NCBI GenBank assembly: GCA_012798975.1
Contig: JAAZME010000138.1
Span: forward strand, 1 to 10,163
DNA: 10,163 bases
Direction: 5' to 3'
Source: Gallicola sp.
Lineage (GTDB): Bacteria; Bacillota; Clostridia; Tissierellales; Peptoniphilaceae
Each line of letters starts with the position of its first letter. Position 1 is the first letter of the stretch. The notes below the pieces were generated by a model that saw only the letters and a list, made by a program, of their open reading frames with translations, ran no database searches and had not been told where the DNA came from. Positions 1 through 9,233 of the stretch are shown here, piece after piece. Both the position numbers and the translations under genes were made by a program.

Positions 1-488
1 ACTCTTTTTAATATTTCTTCCTCTATCTGTGAAATAGGAATACCAAGCCTTGATCCTTTCGCACAAGGGTCATAGATCGCAGGGCCTTCTTGGGTGGAAA
101 ACTCGGGATTGATTCGGATTCCAAAGCTTTTGCCTGCTTTCTTTGTTTCTTCTTCGAATTTTTCCAGCTGAGATAAGGAATTGAAAATAATATGGTCGGA
201 ATATTTTAAAATATCTGAAAATTCCTCTTCTTGAAAGGCTGGAGAAAAGGTATGGTTTTCTTTTCCCATTTCTTCATCGCCAAGTCTTGCTTCAAACAAT
301 CCGCTGGAAGCAGTTCCGGAGAGATATTCGCCGACAAGAGGATAGAGACTATACATAGAAAAAGCCTTTTGTGCCAGAAGAATATGGCAGCCGGTGGTGT
401 CCATAATTTCTTTTAATATTTCTAAATTTTTACGCAGCAAAGACTCCTCTACTATATAGCAGGGAGTCTTTCTTTTAGTTGTTTTCAT
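1..488 (-). CDS. nspC: Carboxynorspermidine/carboxyspermidine decarboxylase, N-terminal part (runs off the window)
   Basis: Translation from the ATG at 488 gives about 162 residues in frame without a stop to the left edge; the family is usually about 375-400 residues, so less than half is present. It opens MKTTKRKTPCYIVEESLL, followed by GCHILLAQKAF (residues 33-43), the alanine-racemase-fold (fold type III) PLP-enzyme pattern in which Lys41 should bind PLP. SGTASSGLFEARLG and RINPEF follow, also typical of NspC. The enzyme decarboxylates carboxynorspermidine or carboxyspermidine to norspermidine or spermidine in the cytoplasm. Its start overlaps the upstream dehydrogenase stop by one base (TAATG), implying translational coupling; those two enzymes act consecutively. 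Family assignment is firm from the visible sequence. Substrate preference cannot be read from this fragment. Confidence 0.93.
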   Translation of the reverse strand, partial: MKTTKRKTPCYIVEESLLRKNLEILKEIMDTTGCHILLAQKAFSMYSLYPLVGEYLSGTASSGLFEARLGDEEMGKENHTFSPAFQEEEFSDILKYSDHIIFNSLSQLEKFEEETKKAGKSFGIRINPEFSTQEGPAIYDPCAKGSRLGIPISQIEEEILKR

Positions 489-1690
489 TAATCCACTAGC
501 TCCGGATTTTCTTCTATCTGCCATGGAAGTCCCCATTTGTTTAGTGCGTCCATAAAAGGATCCGGATCGAATTCTTCTACGGTATAGACTCCGGGACTTT
601 CCCATTGTCCATTCATCACAAGCATCGTTCCGATCATAGCCGGAACTCCTGTTGTGTAGGATACTGCTTGAGATCCTACTTCCGCATAAGCTTCTTGATG
701 ATCGCAGACATTATAAATATAAAGAGTTTTTTCTTCACCGTCTTTTACCCCCTGAAAGATACATCCGATATTTGTTTTGCCAACAGTTCTCGGTCCTAAA
801 GAAGAAGGATCTGGAAGTACAGCTGTCAAAAATTGAAGCGGAATAATTTCTTTTCCTTCAAACATAATCGGTTCGATGGAAGTCATCCCTACATTTTCTA
901 AACATTTTAAATGTGTTAAATAGCTTTCTCCAAAGGTCATAAAGAAACGGATTCTCTTAATTCCCGGCACATGAATACCTAGAGATTCCAACTCTTCATG
1001 ATGAAGGAGATACATATCTTTTTCTCCTATTTCAGGGAAATTATATTTTCTTTTGATTTCTAAAGGTTCTGTTTCTACCCATTCTCCATTTTCCCAGTAA
1101 GAACCCTTCGCAGAGACTTCTCGGATATTGATTTCAGGATTGAAATTTGTAGCAAAAGGATAACCGTGGTCGCCTGCGTTGCAGTCTAATATATCAATAT
1201 AATGTATTTCATCAAAATAATGTTTTAAAGCATAAGCTGTAAATACAGAAGTAACCCCCGGATCAAATCCGCTTCCTAACAGTCCTGTTATACCAGCTTT
1301 TTTATAGCGGTCCATATAATCCCATTGCCATTTATATTCGAATTTTGCTGTATCTTCCGGCTCATAGTTTGCCGTATCGATATAGTGGGTTTTTGTTTCC
1401 AGACAAGCGTCCATTATCGTCAAGTCTTGATACGGAAGAGCAAGGTTAAGAACCGCCTCCGGTTTTACTTTCTCGATAAGAGAAACAAGCTCCTCTACAT
1501 TGTCTGCATCAACCTCTTCTGTAGTAATAACAGTTTTTGTTTTTCCTTCAAGCTTTTCTTTAATTGCATCCGCTTTCGCCTTTGTTCTTGTGGCTATACA
1601 TACTTCTGTGAAAAACTCGTCATTTTGACAGATTTTATGAATTGCTACGCTAGCTACTCCGCCGGCGCCGATTACTAATACTTTTCCCAT
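488..1690 (-). CDS. Carboxynorspermidine/carboxyspermidine dehydrogenase (saccharopine dehydrogenase family)
   Basis: The protein has 400 residues and begins with a Rossmann dinucleotide motif, VLVIGAGGVASVAIHKI (residues 4-20), followed by the saccharopine-dehydrogenase-like body, including LLGSGFDPGVTSVF. Length agrees with characterised family members (about 400). Known family members reductively condense aspartate semialdehyde with putrescine or 1,3-diaminopropane, using NADPH, to form carboxyspermidine or carboxynorspermidine. Immediate coupling to nspC supports this role over a lysine-pathway saccharopine dehydrogenase. The stop of upstream speB is followed after 10 bases by this ATG, and the ribosome site AAGGAG overlaps that speB stop. 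A relative acting on agmatine (carboxyaminopropylagmatine dehydrogenase) is an alternative that sequence alone cannot exclude, because agmatine should be made by the same operon. Confidence 0.9.
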   Translation of the reverse strand: MGKVLVIGAGGVASVAIHKICQNDEFFTEVCIATRTKAKADAIKEKLEGKTKTVITTEEVDADNVEELVSLIEKVKPEAVLNLALPYQDLTIMDACLETKTHYIDTANYEPEDTAKFEYKWQWDYMDRYKKAGITGLLGSGFDPGVTSVFTAYALKHYFDEIHYIDILDCNAGDHGYPFATNFNPEINIREVSAKGSYWENGEWVETEPLEIKRKYNFPEIGEKDMYLLHHEELESLGIHVPGIKRIRFFMTFGESYLTHLKCLENVGMTSIEPIMFEGKEIIPLQFLTAVLPDPSSLGPRTVGKTNIGCIFQGVKDGEEKTLYIYNVCDHQEAYAEVGSQAVSYTTGVPAMIGTMLVMNGQWESPGVYTVEEFDPDPFMDALNKWGLPWQIEENPELVD

Positions 1691-1700
1691 ATTTCACTCC

Positions 1701-2552
1701 TTAACGACTTATGCTTAATATTATTTCTCTTAATAGTTTCCCTGCCACCATTGTGGACATATCGGAAGGGTCGATGGCAGGAGCTAATTCTACCATATCG
1801 CATCCTACTAGATTTGATCTTCCGGTCACTTCCCGCACTTCTCTTAAAAGTTCCACATATCCTACTCCCCCTGCTTCCGGAGTTCCTGTTCCCGGCAGTA
1901 CAGAAGGATCTAGTATATCCAAGTCAATCGTCAAATAGATCGGATATCCACGGAGGTTCTCTACAATTTCGATTAAATCTTGGAAATTAAATAGTTTTAA
2001 TTCAGTGTGTCCCTTAGACCACTCGAATTCTTCTCTGTCTCCTGAGCGGATTCCAAACTGGTATATTCGCCCATCTCCCAGCAGATCCCAACATCTTCTC
2101 ATTACAGAAGCGTGAGACAGTTTTACTCCTAGATACTCATCTCTTAAATCCGCATGGGCATCGAAATGGATAATGTGAAGATCAGGATGTTTTTTCGCTA
2201 AAGCACGTACGGCTCCCAGACTTACTAAATGTTCTCCCCCAAGGAGAAACGGAAACTTGTCATCAGCAATAATTTTTGTTATTGTATCTTCTATTTTTCG
2301 AAGGGTCTTCTCCGTATCTCCGATCGGAAGTTCTATATCCCCTGCATCGAAGATATTTTCTTCTGTCAAATCTCTATGAAGTCCTGGACTATATGTTTCC
2401 AGCCCTTCAGACAAACATCGCATCGCTTTCGGACCGAATCTTGCTCCTGGTCTAAAGGAAGTTGTAGAATCGAAGGGTGCTCCTACAATGACAATATCGG
2501 CTTCTTCGTAGGGTTTATCGCATCCGATAAACTTTTCATTATTATTCAACAT
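1701..2552 (-). CDS. speB: Agmatinase-family ureohydrolase
   Basis: The protein has 283 residues, close to the 290 of Bacillus SpeB. The binuclear manganese site of the arginase/agmatinase family looks complete: GGEH with His108, DAHADL with Asp131, His133 and Asp135, and TIDLDILDP with Asp210 and Asp212. Agmatinase splits agmatine into putrescine and urea. It follows arginine decarboxylase and aminopropyltransferase genes and overlaps the end of speE by 11 bases. The GAGGAG ribosome site lies inside speE, about 10 bases before the ATG, so translation is probably coupled. Some SpeB homologs instead hydrolyse N1-aminopropylagmatine to spermidine; with speE and an aspartate-semialdehyde pathway in the same operon that substrate is a real alternative. 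The family is certain, the exact substrate is not. Confidence 0.93.
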   Translation of the reverse strand: MLNNNEKFIGCDKPYEEADIVIVGAPFDSTTSFRPGARFGPKAMRCLSEGLETYSPGLHRDLTEENIFDAGDIELPIGDTEKTLRKIEDTITKIIADDKFPFLLGGEHLVSLGAVRALAKKHPDLHIIHFDAHADLRDEYLGVKLSHASVMRRCWDLLGDGRIYQFGIRSGDREEFEWSKGHTELKLFNFQDLIEIVENLRGYPIYLTIDLDILDPSVLPGTGTPEAGGVGYVELLREVREVTGRSNLVGCDMVELAPAIDPSDMSTMVAGKLLREIILSISR

Positions 2553-3393
2553 CTTTCATAATCTCCTCTACATACTTTGGCAGATAAAAAGCTCCGAGGT
2601 GAAGCTTTGTGGTGTAATATTTCGTCTCTAATTTTCTTTCATTCCATCGTTCTTCTTTTAGATCCTTTAATGGATGGTACGTTTTCGAAGCAAACCCAAA
2701 CAGCCAGTGCCCGGATGGATACGTCGGTATGTGGGCTTGATAGATTCTCGCTATAGGGAAACTGTCTACAATCCGTTTATGAGCTCTTTTACAGGCTAAG
2801 GCGTCCTGAGGATAGAAAGGGCTTTCATGCTGATTTACCATAATACCGTCTTCTTTTAAGGCTTTATAGGAATTGCCGTAAAACTCTTTTGTAAAAAGAC
2901 TTTCTCCCGGTCCGAAAGGATCCGTAGAGTCTACTATAATGAGATCATAGTAATCTTCCTTTCTTCTTGTAAAGCGCAGTCCGTCTTCATAATAGATATG
3001 AACTCGAGGATCCTCCATTTTTAAGCTTGTCTGGGGAATATATTTTTTGCATACTTCTACTACCATCGGATCTATTTCTACTAAATCTATCCGTTCTATA
3101 TTCTTATACCCTGATAACTCTCGGATAACTCCCCCATCCCCAGCCCCGATTACTAATACCTTTTTTACATCGGGATGAACGGCCATAGGAACATGTACCA
3201 TCATTTCGTGATAAATAAATTCATCTTTTTCTGTAAACATTAAAAACCCGTCTAATACAAGAACTTTCCCTAAATCATAGGATTCGAAAACGTCGATTCT
3301 TTGAAAATCGCTTTGGCCTGAGTATAGCTGTTTGTCAATTCGAATCGATAATTTTACATTGTCTGTATGCATCTCAGAAAACCATAAATCCAT
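2542..3393 (-). CDS. speE: Polyamine aminopropyltransferase (spermidine synthase)
   Basis: The 283-residue protein matches the SpeE fold: DLWFSE at the N-terminus, the decarboxylated-SAM site VIGAGDGGVIRE (residues 81-92), the acidic EID near 106-108, the catalytic segment VDSTDPFGPGESLF with Asp155 and Asp158, and IPTYPSGHW at 222-230. It transfers an aminopropyl group from decarboxylated SAM, made by SpeD, to putrescine. I chose the ATG at 3393, because GAAGGGAG lies 8 bases upstream and MDLWFSE aligns with known N-termini; a GTG nine bases earlier sits almost on the ribosome site. The start lies 20 bases inside the end of speA. The acceptor-site segment reads NQHESPF, and acceptor choice (putrescine, agmatine or another amine) cannot be settled here. 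Confidence 0.95.
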   Translation of the reverse strand: MDLWFSEMHTDNVKLSIRIDKQLYSGQSDFQRIDVFESYDLGKVLVLDGFLMFTEKDEFIYHEMMVHVPMAVHPDVKKVLVIGAGDGGVIRELSGYKNIERIDLVEIDPMVVEVCKKYIPQTSLKMEDPRVHIYYEDGLRFTRRKEDYYDLIIVDSTDPFGPGESLFTKEFYGNSYKALKEDGIMVNQHESPFYPQDALACKRAHKRIVDSFPIARIYQAHIPTYPSGHWLFGFASKTYHPLKDLKEERWNERKLETKYYTTKLHLGAFYLPKYVEEIMKDVE

Positions 3394-4843
3394 CTTTATC
3401 ACTCCCTTCTAGCACATTCAGTCTTTCAATATTGATATCTTCCGGTCCCGTTATTTGAGATCCTTTTTCTTTTGCATATTTTATATAATCGAGTATCTCT
3501 CGTGTGATAACTTCACCAGGGGCTAAAATCGGAATACCTGGAGGATAGCACATAACGAACTCGCTGCAGATTCTGCCTTCCGTTTCTTCGATAGGCAGAG
3601 AAATCTTTGGAGCATAGAAGGCGAACTGAGGTGTTTTTAAAACTGTTGGCTCTACATTCTCATGATAGTGGTGAATCTCTTCTTTTTTCGAAAAATTCCT
3701 TTTCACTTCTGCTAAGGCAGCCACCAGCCGTTCCACATCTCGATTCCGGTCGCCTATGGCGATATAAGCTAAAATATTTCCCATATCTCCGAACTCGATT
3801 TGGATGTCGTATTCATCTCTTAAAAGATCATAGACCTCGATGCCTGTCAGTCCGATACCCTTGGTATTAATCGTCAGCTTCGTCTGATCGTAATCGTAGA
3901 TGCTGGAGCCGTTTATAAGTTCATTTGAAAAGGCATAATATCCTCCGATATGGGCTATCTCTTCTCTGGCATAGTCTGCAAGTTCTTTCACTTTCTGAAA
4001 GGCTCTCTTTCCGTTCAAGGCCAAATTTTTTCTAGACAGATCCAGACTGGATAAAAGAAGATAAGAGGCGCTTGTCGTTTGTGTAAGGTTTATAATCTGA
4101 TGAATAAATCCAGAGCTTATGGTGTTTTTCGCTAACAAAAATGCAGACTGGGTAAGACTTCCTCCCGACTTATGCATACTGACAGCTGCCATATCGCAGC
4201 CTGCTTCCATGGCGCTTATAGGAAGATTTTCACCGAAATAAAAATGAGTCCCATGTGCTTCGTCGGCTAAGCAGTACATACCGTTTTTATGGGCAAGCTC
4301 TACAATCCCTTTTAGATCCGAACAAATTCCATAATAAGTCGGATTATTTACAAGAACCGCTACTGCATCGGGGTGAGCTTCTATCGCTCTTTCTATTTGT
4401 TCTACTTTCATACCCAATGCAATTCCTAATCTCTCATCGATATCCGTATTAATATAAACAGGTCTTGCTCCGCAGAGAACAAGAGCATTGATAACACTTC
4501 TGTGGACGTTTCTTGGAAGAATTATCTTGTCGCCGCTTTTGCATACTGTAAAGATCATACTCTGAATTGCTGAAGTGCCTCCCCCAACCATAAAATAAGC
4601 ATGGTCTGCTCCGAAAGCTTCTGCTGCAAGCTCCGCTCCTTCTTTTATGACGGAAACAGGATGGCAGAGATTATCCAGCTGCTTCATAGAATTGACATCT
4701 ATAGATACACATCGTTCTCCCAGTAAGTTTTTTAAGGCTTGGTTTCCCCGGCCTCGTTTATGCCCCGGTACGTCAAAGGGTACAATTCTTTCGTTTCTAA
4801 ATTCTTCTAAAGCTTCGTAAATAGGCGCTCTATTCTGATCCAT
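3374..4843 (-). CDS. speA: Arginine decarboxylase, Orn/Lys/Arg decarboxylase fold type I
   Basis: The 489-residue protein fits the short Bacillus SpeA-type group (about 490 residues), which lacks the N-terminal response-regulator-like wing domain of the large enterobacterial enzymes. Visible motifs are PGHKRGRG (26-33), VGGGTSA (86-92), the PLP-binding aspartate segment ADEAHGTH (193-200) and VSMHKSGGSLTQS, in which Lys225 should form the PLP Schiff base. The C-terminal domain contains YPPGIPILAPGE. The family decarboxylates arginine, lysine or ornithine. Arginine is favoured because an agmatinase-family gene lies two genes downstream. The gene starts 11 bases after speD with a modest AGGA ribosome site formed partly by the speD TAG stop, and it overlaps speE. 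Substrate is inferred from context, not from a diagnostic residue. Confidence 0.92.
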   Translation of the reverse strand: MDQNRAPIYEALEEFRNERIVPFDVPGHKRGRGNQALKNLLGERCVSIDVNSMKQLDNLCHPVSVIKEGAELAAEAFGADHAYFMVGGGTSAIQSMIFTVCKSGDKIILPRNVHRSVINALVLCGARPVYINTDIDERLGIALGMKVEQIERAIEAHPDAVAVLVNNPTYYGICSDLKGIVELAHKNGMYCLADEAHGTHFYFGENLPISAMEAGCDMAAVSMHKSGGSLTQSAFLLAKNTISSGFIHQIINLTQTTSASYLLLSSLDLSRKNLALNGKRAFQKVKELADYAREEIAHIGGYYAFSNELINGSSIYDYDQTKLTINTKGIGLTGIEVYDLLRDEYDIQIEFGDMGNILAYIAIGDRNRDVERLVAALAEVKRNFSKKEEIHHYHENVEPTVLKTPQFAFYAPKISLPIEETEGRICSEFVMCYPPGIPILAPGEVITREILDYIKYAKEKGSQITGPEDINIERLNVLEGSDKDGFMVF

Positions 4844-4854
4844 ATCATCACATC

Positions 4855-5601
4855 CTAGTATAAGTTTTTGCCGTGAAAGATCTCCATCATCTCTTGGCGG
4901 ATACTTTCTGTAATCTCTTCTTTTTCTTCCTCATCCAGCTCTTCTTCCAAGTGAAACAGATAATCTTCTAATATAATTTCCTTTAGCTTCATCTTCGTAT
5001 GGAAAAGATTCGCTTGATCTACATTAATATCATAGACCTCATAGCGGTTTAAAGTTTCTTCTTCTATATAGTCTTGGATAGAGTCTATAGGGTGATCTAT
5101 AAAGATCTTCTCCCCTTCCAGATTCCTTGTAAATCCTCTTACCCGATAATCCATCGTTATAATATCCGAATCGAAAGAATCGATCAAATAATCTAGAGTG
5201 GATAGAGGAGAAATCTCCCCGCAGGTAGCTACATCGATATCAACTCTAAACGTCGCGATGGAACTATCCGGATGAAACTCGGGATAAGTATGTACCGTAA
5301 CATGGCTTTTATCCAAGTGAGCTAGTATTTCAGAGGTCTTTCTTCTATTTTCCGCGATCAGCACAGCTACAGAGGCTCCCTGAGGGTCATAGTCTTGGCT
5401 GGATACATTCAGTATTTCCGCACCGATCATATCGACTATTTTTTTTATAATCGCAGTAATTCTAGCTGAACTGTATTCCTCATCAATATATTCCACATAC
5501 TGCTGGCGTTGTTTCTCTGTTTTCGCATAACAAATATCGTATATATTAAAACTAAGAGATTTTGTTAAATTGTTAAACCCGTATAATTTTAATTTATCCA
5601 T
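4855..5601 (-). CDS. speD: S-adenosylmethionine decarboxylase proenzyme, E. coli-type (class 1A)
   Basis: The first gene of the polyamine operon encodes 248 residues, nearer the E. coli-type enzyme (about 264) than the short Bacillus/Thermotoga type (about 125). [20 protein letters not shown] is at the N-terminus. The self-cleavage site is [12 protein letters not shown], with Ser99 expected to become the pyruvoyl group. [14 protein letters not shown] contains the likely proton-donor Cys127, and [12 protein letters not shown] follows. It makes decarboxylated SAM for SpeE. I chose the ATG at 5601 because GGAGGAGA lies just upstream (5605-5612) and the N-terminus matches the family. A start at 5691 would add 30 unrelated residues and read through the terminator hairpin. 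Expression is likely controlled by the leader attenuator described separately. Confidence 0.96.
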
Positions 5602-5616
5602 AAATCTCCTCCATTT

Positions 5617-5646
5617 AAAAAAGCACAAGAGATCTCTCTCTTGTGC
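5617..5646 (-). terminator. Intrinsic terminator in the speD leader (attenuator)
   Basis: Read on the minus strand, GCACAAGAGA, a GAGA loop and the exact complement TCTCTTGTGC form a perfect 10-bp stem, followed at once by six T residues. It ends only a few bases before the speD ribosome site GGAGGAGA (5605-5612), so it is downstream of the predicted promoter and upstream of the whole operon. That placement is what an attenuator would have. Partial competitor sequences lie upstream: minus-strand TTCTTGT (5683-5677) can pair with ACAAGAG in the 5' arm, and AAGAGAT (5676-5670) with ATCTCTT of the 3' half. These are shorter than the terminator stem, so the antiterminator is tentative. Confidence 0.85.
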
Positions 5647-5722
5647 AGAATTCTTCTTTATCTCGAGAAATCTCTTACAAGAACAGCACACAGCGATCTT
5701 TTATTTAAAACTATTCCTTTAC

Positions 5723-5767
5723 TTAGGGCAAAAGATCCAGCCCCATGGACTTCTCATCTGAAAACAT
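5723..5767 (-). CDS. Candidate 14-residue leader peptide upstream of speD
   Basis: A short ORF in the speD leader encodes MFSDEKSMGLDLLP followed by TAA. AAAAGG lies at 5783-5778, about 10 bases before the ATG, a good ribosome site. The ORF starts roughly 20 bases after the predicted transcription start and ends about 75 bases before the terminator. Its last sense codon is proline directly before the stop, as in the TnaC arrest peptide; polyamine genes elsewhere are also controlled by small upstream ORFs (SpeFL in enterobacteria, the MAGDIS uORF of mammalian AdoMet decarboxylase). There is no sequence similarity to those that I can see. Codons 11-13 contain GATCTTTT, exactly complementary to AAAAGATC at 5702-5695. 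Translation is inferred, and a 15-codon ORF can arise by chance. Confidence 0.5.
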   Translation of the reverse strand: MFSDEKSMGLDLLP

Positions 5768-5794
5768 CTCTGCTTTTCCTTTTATAGCAGCAAT

Positions 5795-5823
5795 ATTATA
5801 TAATAATTTTCTCTAATTGTATA
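5795..5823 (-). promoter_or_regulatory. Promoter of the speD polyamine operon
   Basis: On the minus strand TATACA (5823-5818) and TATAAT (5800-5795) are separated by 17 bases. The -10 is a consensus match and the -35 matches TTGACA at four of six positions. Transcription would begin near 5788-5785, giving a leader of about 190 bases with the small ORF and terminator. Confidence 0.6.
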
Positions 5824-5825
5824 AC

Positions 5826-5862
5826 AGAACTTTTCAAGAACAAAACTTGGGTGAAAGGTTCT
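5826..5862. promoter_or_regulatory. Inverted repeat between divergent promoters, candidate operator
   Basis: AGAACTTTTCA (5826-5836) and TGAAAGGTTCT (5852-5862) are inverted copies with one mismatch in 11 bp, separated by 15 bases. The left arm ends three bases from the speD -35 box and the right arm abuts the -35 box of the divergent plus-strand promoter. This symmetric placement suits a dimeric regulator acting on both transcription units. No regulator gene is in the window and I do not recognise the motif. Confidence 0.45.
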
Positions 5863-6174: not shown

Positions 6175-7083
6175 ATGAAATTTTCTATATATAGACCCAG
6201 TATACGAACTGTGAAAACAGGTTTAGCTGTGGCGGTATCGCTGGCCATTGCCAATTTTTTTCATTTAGAAGCTCCTTTTCTATCCGGAATTTCCGCCTTG
6301 ATGACTGTCAATGATTCTATCTCCAGTTCCTTTAAAATAGCTCTTTTTCGTATGACTGCAACAGTGCTTGGTGCTGTTATAGCCTGCCTTTTTCAATTCG
6401 CAGGCTTTACAAACAGTTTTGCTATCGGACTTGCTATCGTTCTTCTTGTACAGCTTTTTATTTTATTAAAATGGCAGGAGTCCATTATCACTGCCGGGAT
6501 TGTAACGATATCGATAATGCTCTTTAATCCCGCAAGCCACGAGGCTTATATTCTTTTTTCCGTATCTAAGATCATCGATACCTTTGTAGGGGTAGCTACT
6601 GGATTTTTAATCAATTATCTGATCCTTCCTCCGAGAAGAGAAGTCATACTCGTAGAATATTATCGAAGTATTTTACAAGAGTTTATAAAAAAACTAGGAG
6701 AACTTTTGGAAAAAGAAGGAGATGTGCATATTTCTCCTTTAATCGCAGAACTAAACTCGATTACTAACGAAACTTTAACCATAGAAGAAGATAAACGCTT
6801 TATCCAAAACAGAGTTAAAGAAACGGAAATCTGGGAAATCAATACCTTGTTCTATATCCTCTTCAGCCTAATTACCCAGCTGATCGATAAAAAGCATATC
6901 GTCCCTTTAACGGATAAAAACAAAAAAGCCCTCGAAGAACTGCTTGACCGGGATATCCAGCAGCGCTACGACGACAAAGACAAGGATTACGAAAAAATAT
7001 TCAACTTCACCATCTCAAGAATCATCAGCACCTCCCGTTCCATAGAAAAACGGCTAAAAGAAATCGAGAGTTCGGTGAAATAA
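6175..7083 (+). CDS. Aromatic-acid-exporter-like FUSC/ArAE family membrane protein
   Basis: The 302-residue protein has an N-terminal membrane half and a soluble, charged, helical C-terminal half (about 152-302). Hydrophobic segments lie near residues 15-29, 33-48, 59-77, 81-98, 103-117 and 132-150. The start VKTGLAVAVSLAIA, the following PFLSGISALMTV and the closing NYLILPPRRE resemble the ArAE_1/DUF939 group of Firmicutes, related to fusaric-acid and aromatic-acid efflux proteins. The start is set by GAAGGAGG six bases before the ATG. Substrate is unknown. It is divergent from the polyamine operon across a shared promoter region, so a role in exporting polyamines or related compounds is possible but only a context inference. 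No dedicated terminator follows closely; the bidirectional one at 7353-7382 could serve. Confidence 0.85.
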   Translation: MKFSIYRPSIRTVKTGLAVAVSLAIANFFHLEAPFLSGISALMTVNDSISSSFKIALFRMTATVLGAVIACLFQFAGFTNSFAIGLAIVLLVQLFILLKWQESIITAGIVTISIMLFNPASHEAYILFSVSKIIDTFVGVATGFLINYLILPPRREVILVEYYRSILQEFIKKLGELLEKEGDVHISPLIAELNSITNETLTIEEDKRFIQNRVKETEIWEINTLFYILFSLITQLIDKKHIVPLTDKNKKALEELLDRDIQQRYDDKDKDYEKIFNFTISRIISTSRSIEKRLKEIESSVK

Positions 7084-9056: not shown

Positions 9057-9068
9057 ATAAGTAATAAA

Positions 9069-9148
9069 ATATGGGGAGCTTTTTGCTGAGAGGATCGTTG
9101 AGATCGACCCAAGAACCTGTTTGGATAATGCCAGCGTAGGAATCATAA
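9069..9148 (+). ncRNA. TPP riboswitch (THI element) aptamer
   Basis: The conserved THI blocks are present in order: GGGGAGC, GCTGAGAGGATC, GTTGAGATCGACCC, GAACCTGTTTGGATAATGCC and AGCGTAGGAA. The outer stem can be formed by TATG (9070-9073) with CATA (9144-9147). The aptamer binds thiamin pyrophosphate and should repress the downstream tenA gene when TPP is abundant. Confidence 0.97.
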
Positions 9149-9151
9149 TCG

Positions 9152-9233
9152 AGAGGACTTTTTGCCTCTTTTTAAAGTTGAGTCATAACCATCAGGTTTT
9201 GGACTCCTTTTTTATTAAAAAAACTTTAGGAGG
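9152..9233 (+). terminator. Riboswitch expression platform: terminator plus possible ribosome-site sequestration
   Basis: GAGTC (9180-9184) pairs with GACTC (9202-9206), with an inner AACC/GGTT stem, followed by CC-less than perfect spacing and then six T (9208-9213): an intrinsic terminator. AAAGTT (9174-9179) is complementary to AACTTT (9222-9227), next to the AGGAGG ribosome site (9228-9233), and could extend the structure toward it. A small hairpin AGAGG (9152-9156) / CCTCT (9165-9169) with a T-run comes first. How these switch with TPP is inferred from position. Confidence 0.7.

Follow-up and report, generated by a model that had tools for sequence, protein, structure and literature searches.

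The leader of the speD operon in the window, the 10,163-nucleotide stretch of Gallicola sp. DNA analysed here, is with moderate confidence a terminator/antiterminator attenuator whose likeliest input is the occupancy of a small open reading frame (ORF) by ribosomes. A perfect intrinsic terminator abuts the speD ribosome site, and a second helix, the antiterminator, uses part of the same sequence, such that the two structures exclude each other. Attenuation by competing terminator and antiterminator is an already known kind of control, and the element in the window is placed within that kind. Few bacterial switches of polyamine synthesis are understood, though polyamines are nearly universal, and with both helices named the control of the speD operon becomes directly testable.

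The operon is encoded on the minus strand. Its first gene, speD (4855..5601), codes for an S-adenosylmethionine decarboxylase of the E. coli type; the match to TIGR03331 in a family profile search (385 bits, cut-off 255.8) agrees with the class 1A assignment made in the original prediction. It is followed by genes for an Orn/Lys/Arg decarboxylase (3374..4843, PF01276), spermidine synthase (speE, 2542..3402, family profile search), agmatinase (speB, 1701..2552, TIGR01230) and a carboxynorspermidine synthase/dehydrogenase-like protein (488..1690; NF043000 with 411 bits, under its cut-off of 800). The last frame in the open reading frame list (3..605, minus strand), truncated by the contig end, probably encodes carboxynorspermidine decarboxylase, a name taken from the neighbouring genes alone. 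Upstream, the speD leader occupies about 190 bases of the minus strand between the speD start codon (ATG at 5601) and a divergent ArAE_1 exporter-like gene on the plus strand (6175-7083, profile search). Judged from the genes of the operon alone, the signal sensed by this leader would be a polyamine. The source genome is 82% complete and 1.8% contaminated. Elsewhere in the window, a TPP riboswitch-like match on the plus strand (9062-9159; 47.4 bits, below the gathering score of 54.3; E 5.8e-7) sits at the start of the frame of a tenA-type gene.

A promoter-like site, TATACA-17-TATAAT (5795..5823, minus strand), matches the consensus in 10 of 12 positions and would place the transcription start at about 5788-5790 on the minus strand. 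The predicted promoter is thus present at 5823-5795, but such sites are not rarer than chance (four found versus 3.0 expected on both strands of 801 bases), and its use is presumed here. An 11-base inverted repeat with one G-T pair (AGAACTTTTCA/TGAAAGGTTCT, 5826-5836 and 5852-5862), noticed by eye and absent from the repeat-finder listing, lies immediately upstream of the speD -35 element and beside a promoter-like site of the opposite strand; it is a possible operator candidate.

The intrinsic terminator (5617..5646, minus strand) consists of ten perfect pairs (5646-5637 with 5632-5623) closed by a GAGA loop. The hairpin, GCACAAGAGA-GAGA-TCTCTTGTGC (5646-5623), is followed by six T, the speD ribosome site and the ATG at 5601. 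When the 187-base leader was shuffled 20,000 times with dinucleotides preserved, a perfect 10-bp stem with a T tail did not appear once. Since the upstream neighbour is divergent, the terminator at 5646-5617 cannot end an upstream operon. Both the perfect stem abutting the speD ribosome site and its placement as an attenuator-type terminator between the promoter-like site and speD are borne out, and among the parts named in the original prediction only the terminator clearly exceeds chance. The whole leader also folds better than its shuffles (z -2.39; 4 of 200 equally good), an excess that may largely be accounted for by the terminator.

The competing helix, absent from the original prediction, was found in an inverted-repeat search as a match of 5676-5665 with 5638-5627 (92% complementary). 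Including G-U pairs, it extends to 15 contiguous pairs, 11 of them Watson-Crick, between 5679-5665 and 5638-5624. Its 5' side is referred to as strand B (TGTAAGAGATTTCTC, 5665..5679) and its 3' side as strand C (5624..5638), both on the minus strand; the repeat finder, folding and shuffles all point to this candidate antiterminator. Strand C comprises two bases of the 5' arm of the terminator, its loop and nine bases of its 3' arm. Because the B:C helix takes up the loop and the 3' arm, it and the terminator are mutually exclusive; an antiterminator of the type expected in a transcription attenuator is thus found by sequence and by folding. Eleven Watson-Crick pairs were reached in 12 of 2,000 dinucleotide shuffles of the upstream part, and the rarity holds when only the part 3' of the ORF stop codon is shuffled (14 of 2,000). 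A shorter helix from the first folding model (5681-5675 with 5644-5638) was superseded by the longer one.

Folding was computed at fixed RNA ends rather than as kinetics and with an assumed transcription start. Under these premises, the local energy is -18.2 kcal/mol for B:C when forced versus -21.3 kcal/mol for the terminator fold. For an RNA that stops at 5627, B:C has a predicted probability of 0.91 without a ribosome and of 0.93-0.96 when one occupies the ORF; for ends at 5623-5617 the terminator reaches 0.99. When the sequence extends to 5610 and another start is assumed, the terminator is at 0.89, yet the single best fold is the antiterminator. The calculations demonstrate only that a contest of the two predicted structures exists. 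The dominance of the terminator in the complete leader would also suit a constitutive terminator or stabilising hairpin that fixes operon expression at a low level, with the antiterminator arising by accident from GA- and CT-rich sequence. B:C is indeed made of GA and CT tracts, but the shuffles that keep this composition rarely match it (the 12 of 2,000 above), and we consider such a fixed setting unlikely.

In the attenuator that we favour, RNA polymerase would start near 5788 and make about 170 bases before reaching the terminator that abuts the speD ribosome site. Pairing of strand B (5679-5665) with strand C (5638-5624) would exclude the terminator; this helix would form before the terminator has been transcribed to its last bases and be displaced once they exist. 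Given this predicted order of early formation and later displacement, any factor that captures or masks B would shift the balance. As input, we consider it likeliest that ribosomes occupy the small ORF, in which codons 5-7 (strand A) could pair with B. Such an input is possible, and the modelling points to it weakly; an effect of the ORF on the operon, and the direction of the resulting control, are presumed.

The small ORF (5723..5767, minus strand) runs over 14 codons, MFSDEKSMGLDLLP-stop, from the ATG at 5767 to the TAA at 5723, with AGGA nine bases upstream of the ATG, and ends LeuLeuPro-stop. This candidate leader peptide with its own ribosome site is present as originally described, but lies within chance: among 20,000 shuffles of the 187-base leader, 12% contain an ATG ORF that has a ribosome site and spans 14 codons or more, and 21% contain one when the minimum is lowered to 8 codons. 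The same applies to the 8-bp complement between GATCTTTT in the ORF (5737-5730) and AAAAGATC (5695..5702, minus strand), which had been proposed as the switching stem. It exists at these positions, but a perfect complement of 8 bp is found in 13.6% of 20,000 leader shuffles, and since the stem has no overlap with the terminator it was rejected as the switch. By these shuffle frequencies the terminator stands out, whereas neither the ORF nor the 8-bp stem means much on its own.

Strand A (GAGAAGTC, 5748..5755, minus strand), suggested by folding and assessed with shuffles, pairs with 5672-5665 of strand B through eight pairs, one of them G-U; 122 of 2,000 ORF shuffles pair as well, which is not significant. 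The ribosome was modelled as a 30-base shadow moved along the ORF, with the complete leader folded at each position. Only codon 5 in the P site tips the balance: the predicted terminator drops to 0.42 and B:C climbs to 0.57. On codons 7-12, B:C reaches 0.05-0.15 versus 0.003 without a ribosome, and at 13 of the 14 positions the terminator remains above 0.8. Shadows on codons 3, 4 and 6 also mask the entire strand A, yet leave the terminator at 0.96-0.99; freeing B from A is thus insufficient in the model, which argues against a simple A:B switch. Ribosomes on the small ORF may act as the input, translation itself being predicted.

A more specific role of the ribosome had been proposed in the original prediction, namely that it stalls at the Pro-stop of the ORF upon a polyamine or SAM-related signal, blocks the 8-bp stem and thereby changes termination. 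TnaC and SpeFL are arrest-peptide leaders, and the last codon of TnaC is Pro. The window resembles both in having a small ORF ahead of an operon, and TnaC also in the final Pro codon. Just 0.5% of shuffles yield an ORF of 8 or more codons that has a ribosome site and ends in Pro-stop, a feature that was picked after being seen. In an earlier folding model, a ribosome on the stop codon raised sequestration of the 5' arm of the terminator from 0.37 to 0.61 (equalled in 16 of 400 shuffles), but the predicted effect is not specific to the stop, as sequestration is greater when codon 7 (0.67) or the start codon (0.68) is occupied instead. In the complete leader, the terminator keeps a probability of 0.98 when the ribosome sits on the last codon, versus about 0.01 (0.011) for the antiterminator. 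By this model, and unlike in the TnaC and SpeFL systems, ribosome arrest at the stop would leave the complete terminator closed; the 8-bp stem that it would block makes no contact with the terminator.

Comparison with other speD leaders likewise argues against Pro-stop arrest. A total of 109 leaders was compared, each taken as at most 250 bases ahead of the estimated start codon: the best 80 of at least 573 SpeD relatives and 29 loci among 44 other genomes of the order that have SpeD. A Pro-stop ORF with a ribosome site was found in one of the 109 (L052, within an RNA of the RF02440 type discussed below), in none of the 45 leaders without that RNA and in none of 11 further SpeD loci of the class. 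Taken together, arrest at the Pro-stop appears very unlikely. Any ORF with a ribosome site was seen in 11 of the 45 leaders without the RNA. The nearest SpeD relatives, with 91%, 86% and 76% identity, are known as proteins only, and the leader comparison hence concerns distant loci; apart from the genome of the window itself, 391 genomes of the class held nothing nearer to the 91% relative than 68%. The small ORF, which shows no sign of conservation in these distant leaders, could belong to the switch. Conserved upstream ORFs in two relatives from the order (L087 and L091) were discarded, as they overlap what reads by eye as a promoter. A terminator-like hairpin was found within 200 bases upstream of speD at 53 of the 80 loci, the best 80 of at least 573 relatives, a frequency that fits the attenuator reading, and at 5 of the 29 loci from the order, a scarcity that counts against it.

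Trp-type attenuators are coupled to translation and carry a leader peptide. Such peptides occur in Firmicutes, for example the His leader peptides of bacilli (PMC2965389). The window shares with these systems a short ORF, a possible rival antiterminator and a terminator before the first gene, but differs in that its ORF is putative and lacks the characteristic codon run: MFSDEKSMGLDLLP, read by eye, holds no run of arginine, lysine or methionine codons, nor of those for any amino acid of the pathway. An upstream ORF before a polyamine gene is also known from the odc1 motif, whose 11-residue peptide is highly conserved at most positions (272 examples); in contrast to the window, that motif is alphaproteobacterial and translational (PMC8632094). 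If the ribosome is indeed the sensor in the window, the leader would be a translation-coupled attenuator for a bacterial S-adenosylmethionine decarboxylase.

Many speD operons carry a different leader. A conserved RNA was detected upstream of speD at 64 of the 80 loci (E up to 0.01, weakest match 21.3 bits), which are the best 80 of at least 573 relatives, and is commonly followed by a terminator-like hairpin. The model of this RNA, R1, comprises 211 positions and was built from 32 of these loci; Rfam family RF02440 (SpF59_sRNA, with ldcC RNA as second name), typed as an sRNA in Rfam, covers merely its 5' 54 bases. Among 60 copies in an alignment fitted to the structure, 98.2% of the cells of the 32 pairs are paired; in 8 pairs both partners change, a number reached in 1 of 500 shuffles. 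RF02440 is present in 17 of 398 Bacillota genomes. All 17 loci match R1, and in all of them a gene for SpeD (6), the decarboxylase (4) or a carboxynorspermidine enzyme (7), as sought with the six proteins of the window, lies downstream on the same strand. R1 was also found at 10 of the 11 further SpeD loci of the class (one, L153, being the same place as L129), at none of the 29 loci from the order, and RF02440 in none of 248 genomes of the order. We take SP0916 to be the first gene of a polyamine operon. Pneumococcal F59 is located between SP0915 and SP0916 (PMC3395615). The second name ldcC RNA suggests that the Rfam curators saw a link to a decarboxylase gene. The literature search found no description of an RF02440-type RNA as a riboswitch, nor anything on SpF59 or ldcC as a leader. 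From these alignments and gene contexts, R1 emerges as a candidate orphan cis-regulatory RNA ahead of polyamine genes across Bacillota, many of which carry it.

The window differs from these loci in that the RNA is missing: neither RF02440 nor R1 matched, and the view that the leader is a diverged RF02440-type RNA was rejected after a search with filters off, in which R1 scored 1.9 bits at best (E 0.61). The widespread structured RNA nevertheless bears on a tentative alternative, which we regard as possible without favouring it, in which sensing falls to the RNA or to a protein bound to it, through an aptamer or binding site within 5790-5647 that controls B:C, and the ORF is accidental. It fits with an ORF within chance, with the folding of the whole leader (z -2.39, 4 of 200 as good) and with the structured RNA at 64 of the 80 loci just described. 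Spermidine riboswitches, 13 examples of SAM-I variants, control polyamine genes in several Bacilli (PMC10853860) and resemble the window in their polyamine genes and in a terminator/antiterminator expression platform. They differ from it in their SAM-I-like aptamer: searches with SAM family models, which are not specific for the variants, found nothing in the window at E values up to 5 or in the leader at values up to 10. No Rfam family fits the leader, which argues against an RNA sensor, as does the poor score of the RF02440-type model. The statement in the original prediction that no leader peptide had been described for bacterial speD operons gives an incomplete picture, as both spermidine riboswitches and RF02440-type RNAs precede polyamine genes.

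The absence of R1 from the leader is set against the placement of its SpeD protein. In a quick, unfinished tree, SpeD of the window falls apart from its own order, among other Clostridia, and inside an 80-row group with all 64 RNA-bearing rows (SH-aLRT 98); as the tree is quick and the window sits on a long branch, this placement is only indicative. SpeD is present in one of 130 genomes of the family, that of the window itself, and in 45 of 249 of the order. Its absence from the other 129 family genomes, together with the tree, makes it plausible that the operon was gained by horizontal transfer and then lost the RNA; alternatively, the contig may have been wrongly binned, which is possible. 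A plasmid search returned 15 records, all below 60% identity, and a search of viral contigs one weak match of 30% identity. An extended scenario combines this history with the favoured attenuator: the operon would have swapped the conserved RNA sensor for a ribosome-based one, in which translation of the 14-codon ORF, slowed by polyamine shortage at the Pro-stop or at mid codons, decides between antiterminator and terminator. Taken as a whole, it is quite unlikely.

Some minor observations were made in the course of these comparisons. The leader also gave short matches of 19-43 bases in 36 genomes elsewhere in the class (lowest E 1.6e-5, in one genome), which were discarded as a set. Likewise, no second copy was accepted within the genome of the window, where the 25 other short matches all have E of at least 0.05. 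At three of the R1-bearing loci (L014, L019, L031), a second copy of the R1 motif GCCATACGGACAGC with up to two mismatches lies behind speD, at about 3960-4060, where model R1 itself gave no second match. Two of the 25 short leader matches are on contig C233, within an open frame at its end. The same contig (L119) carries an open frame of 350 residues, followed by one TGA and 86 more residues in frame, which may be a selenoprotein of the glycine reductase type.
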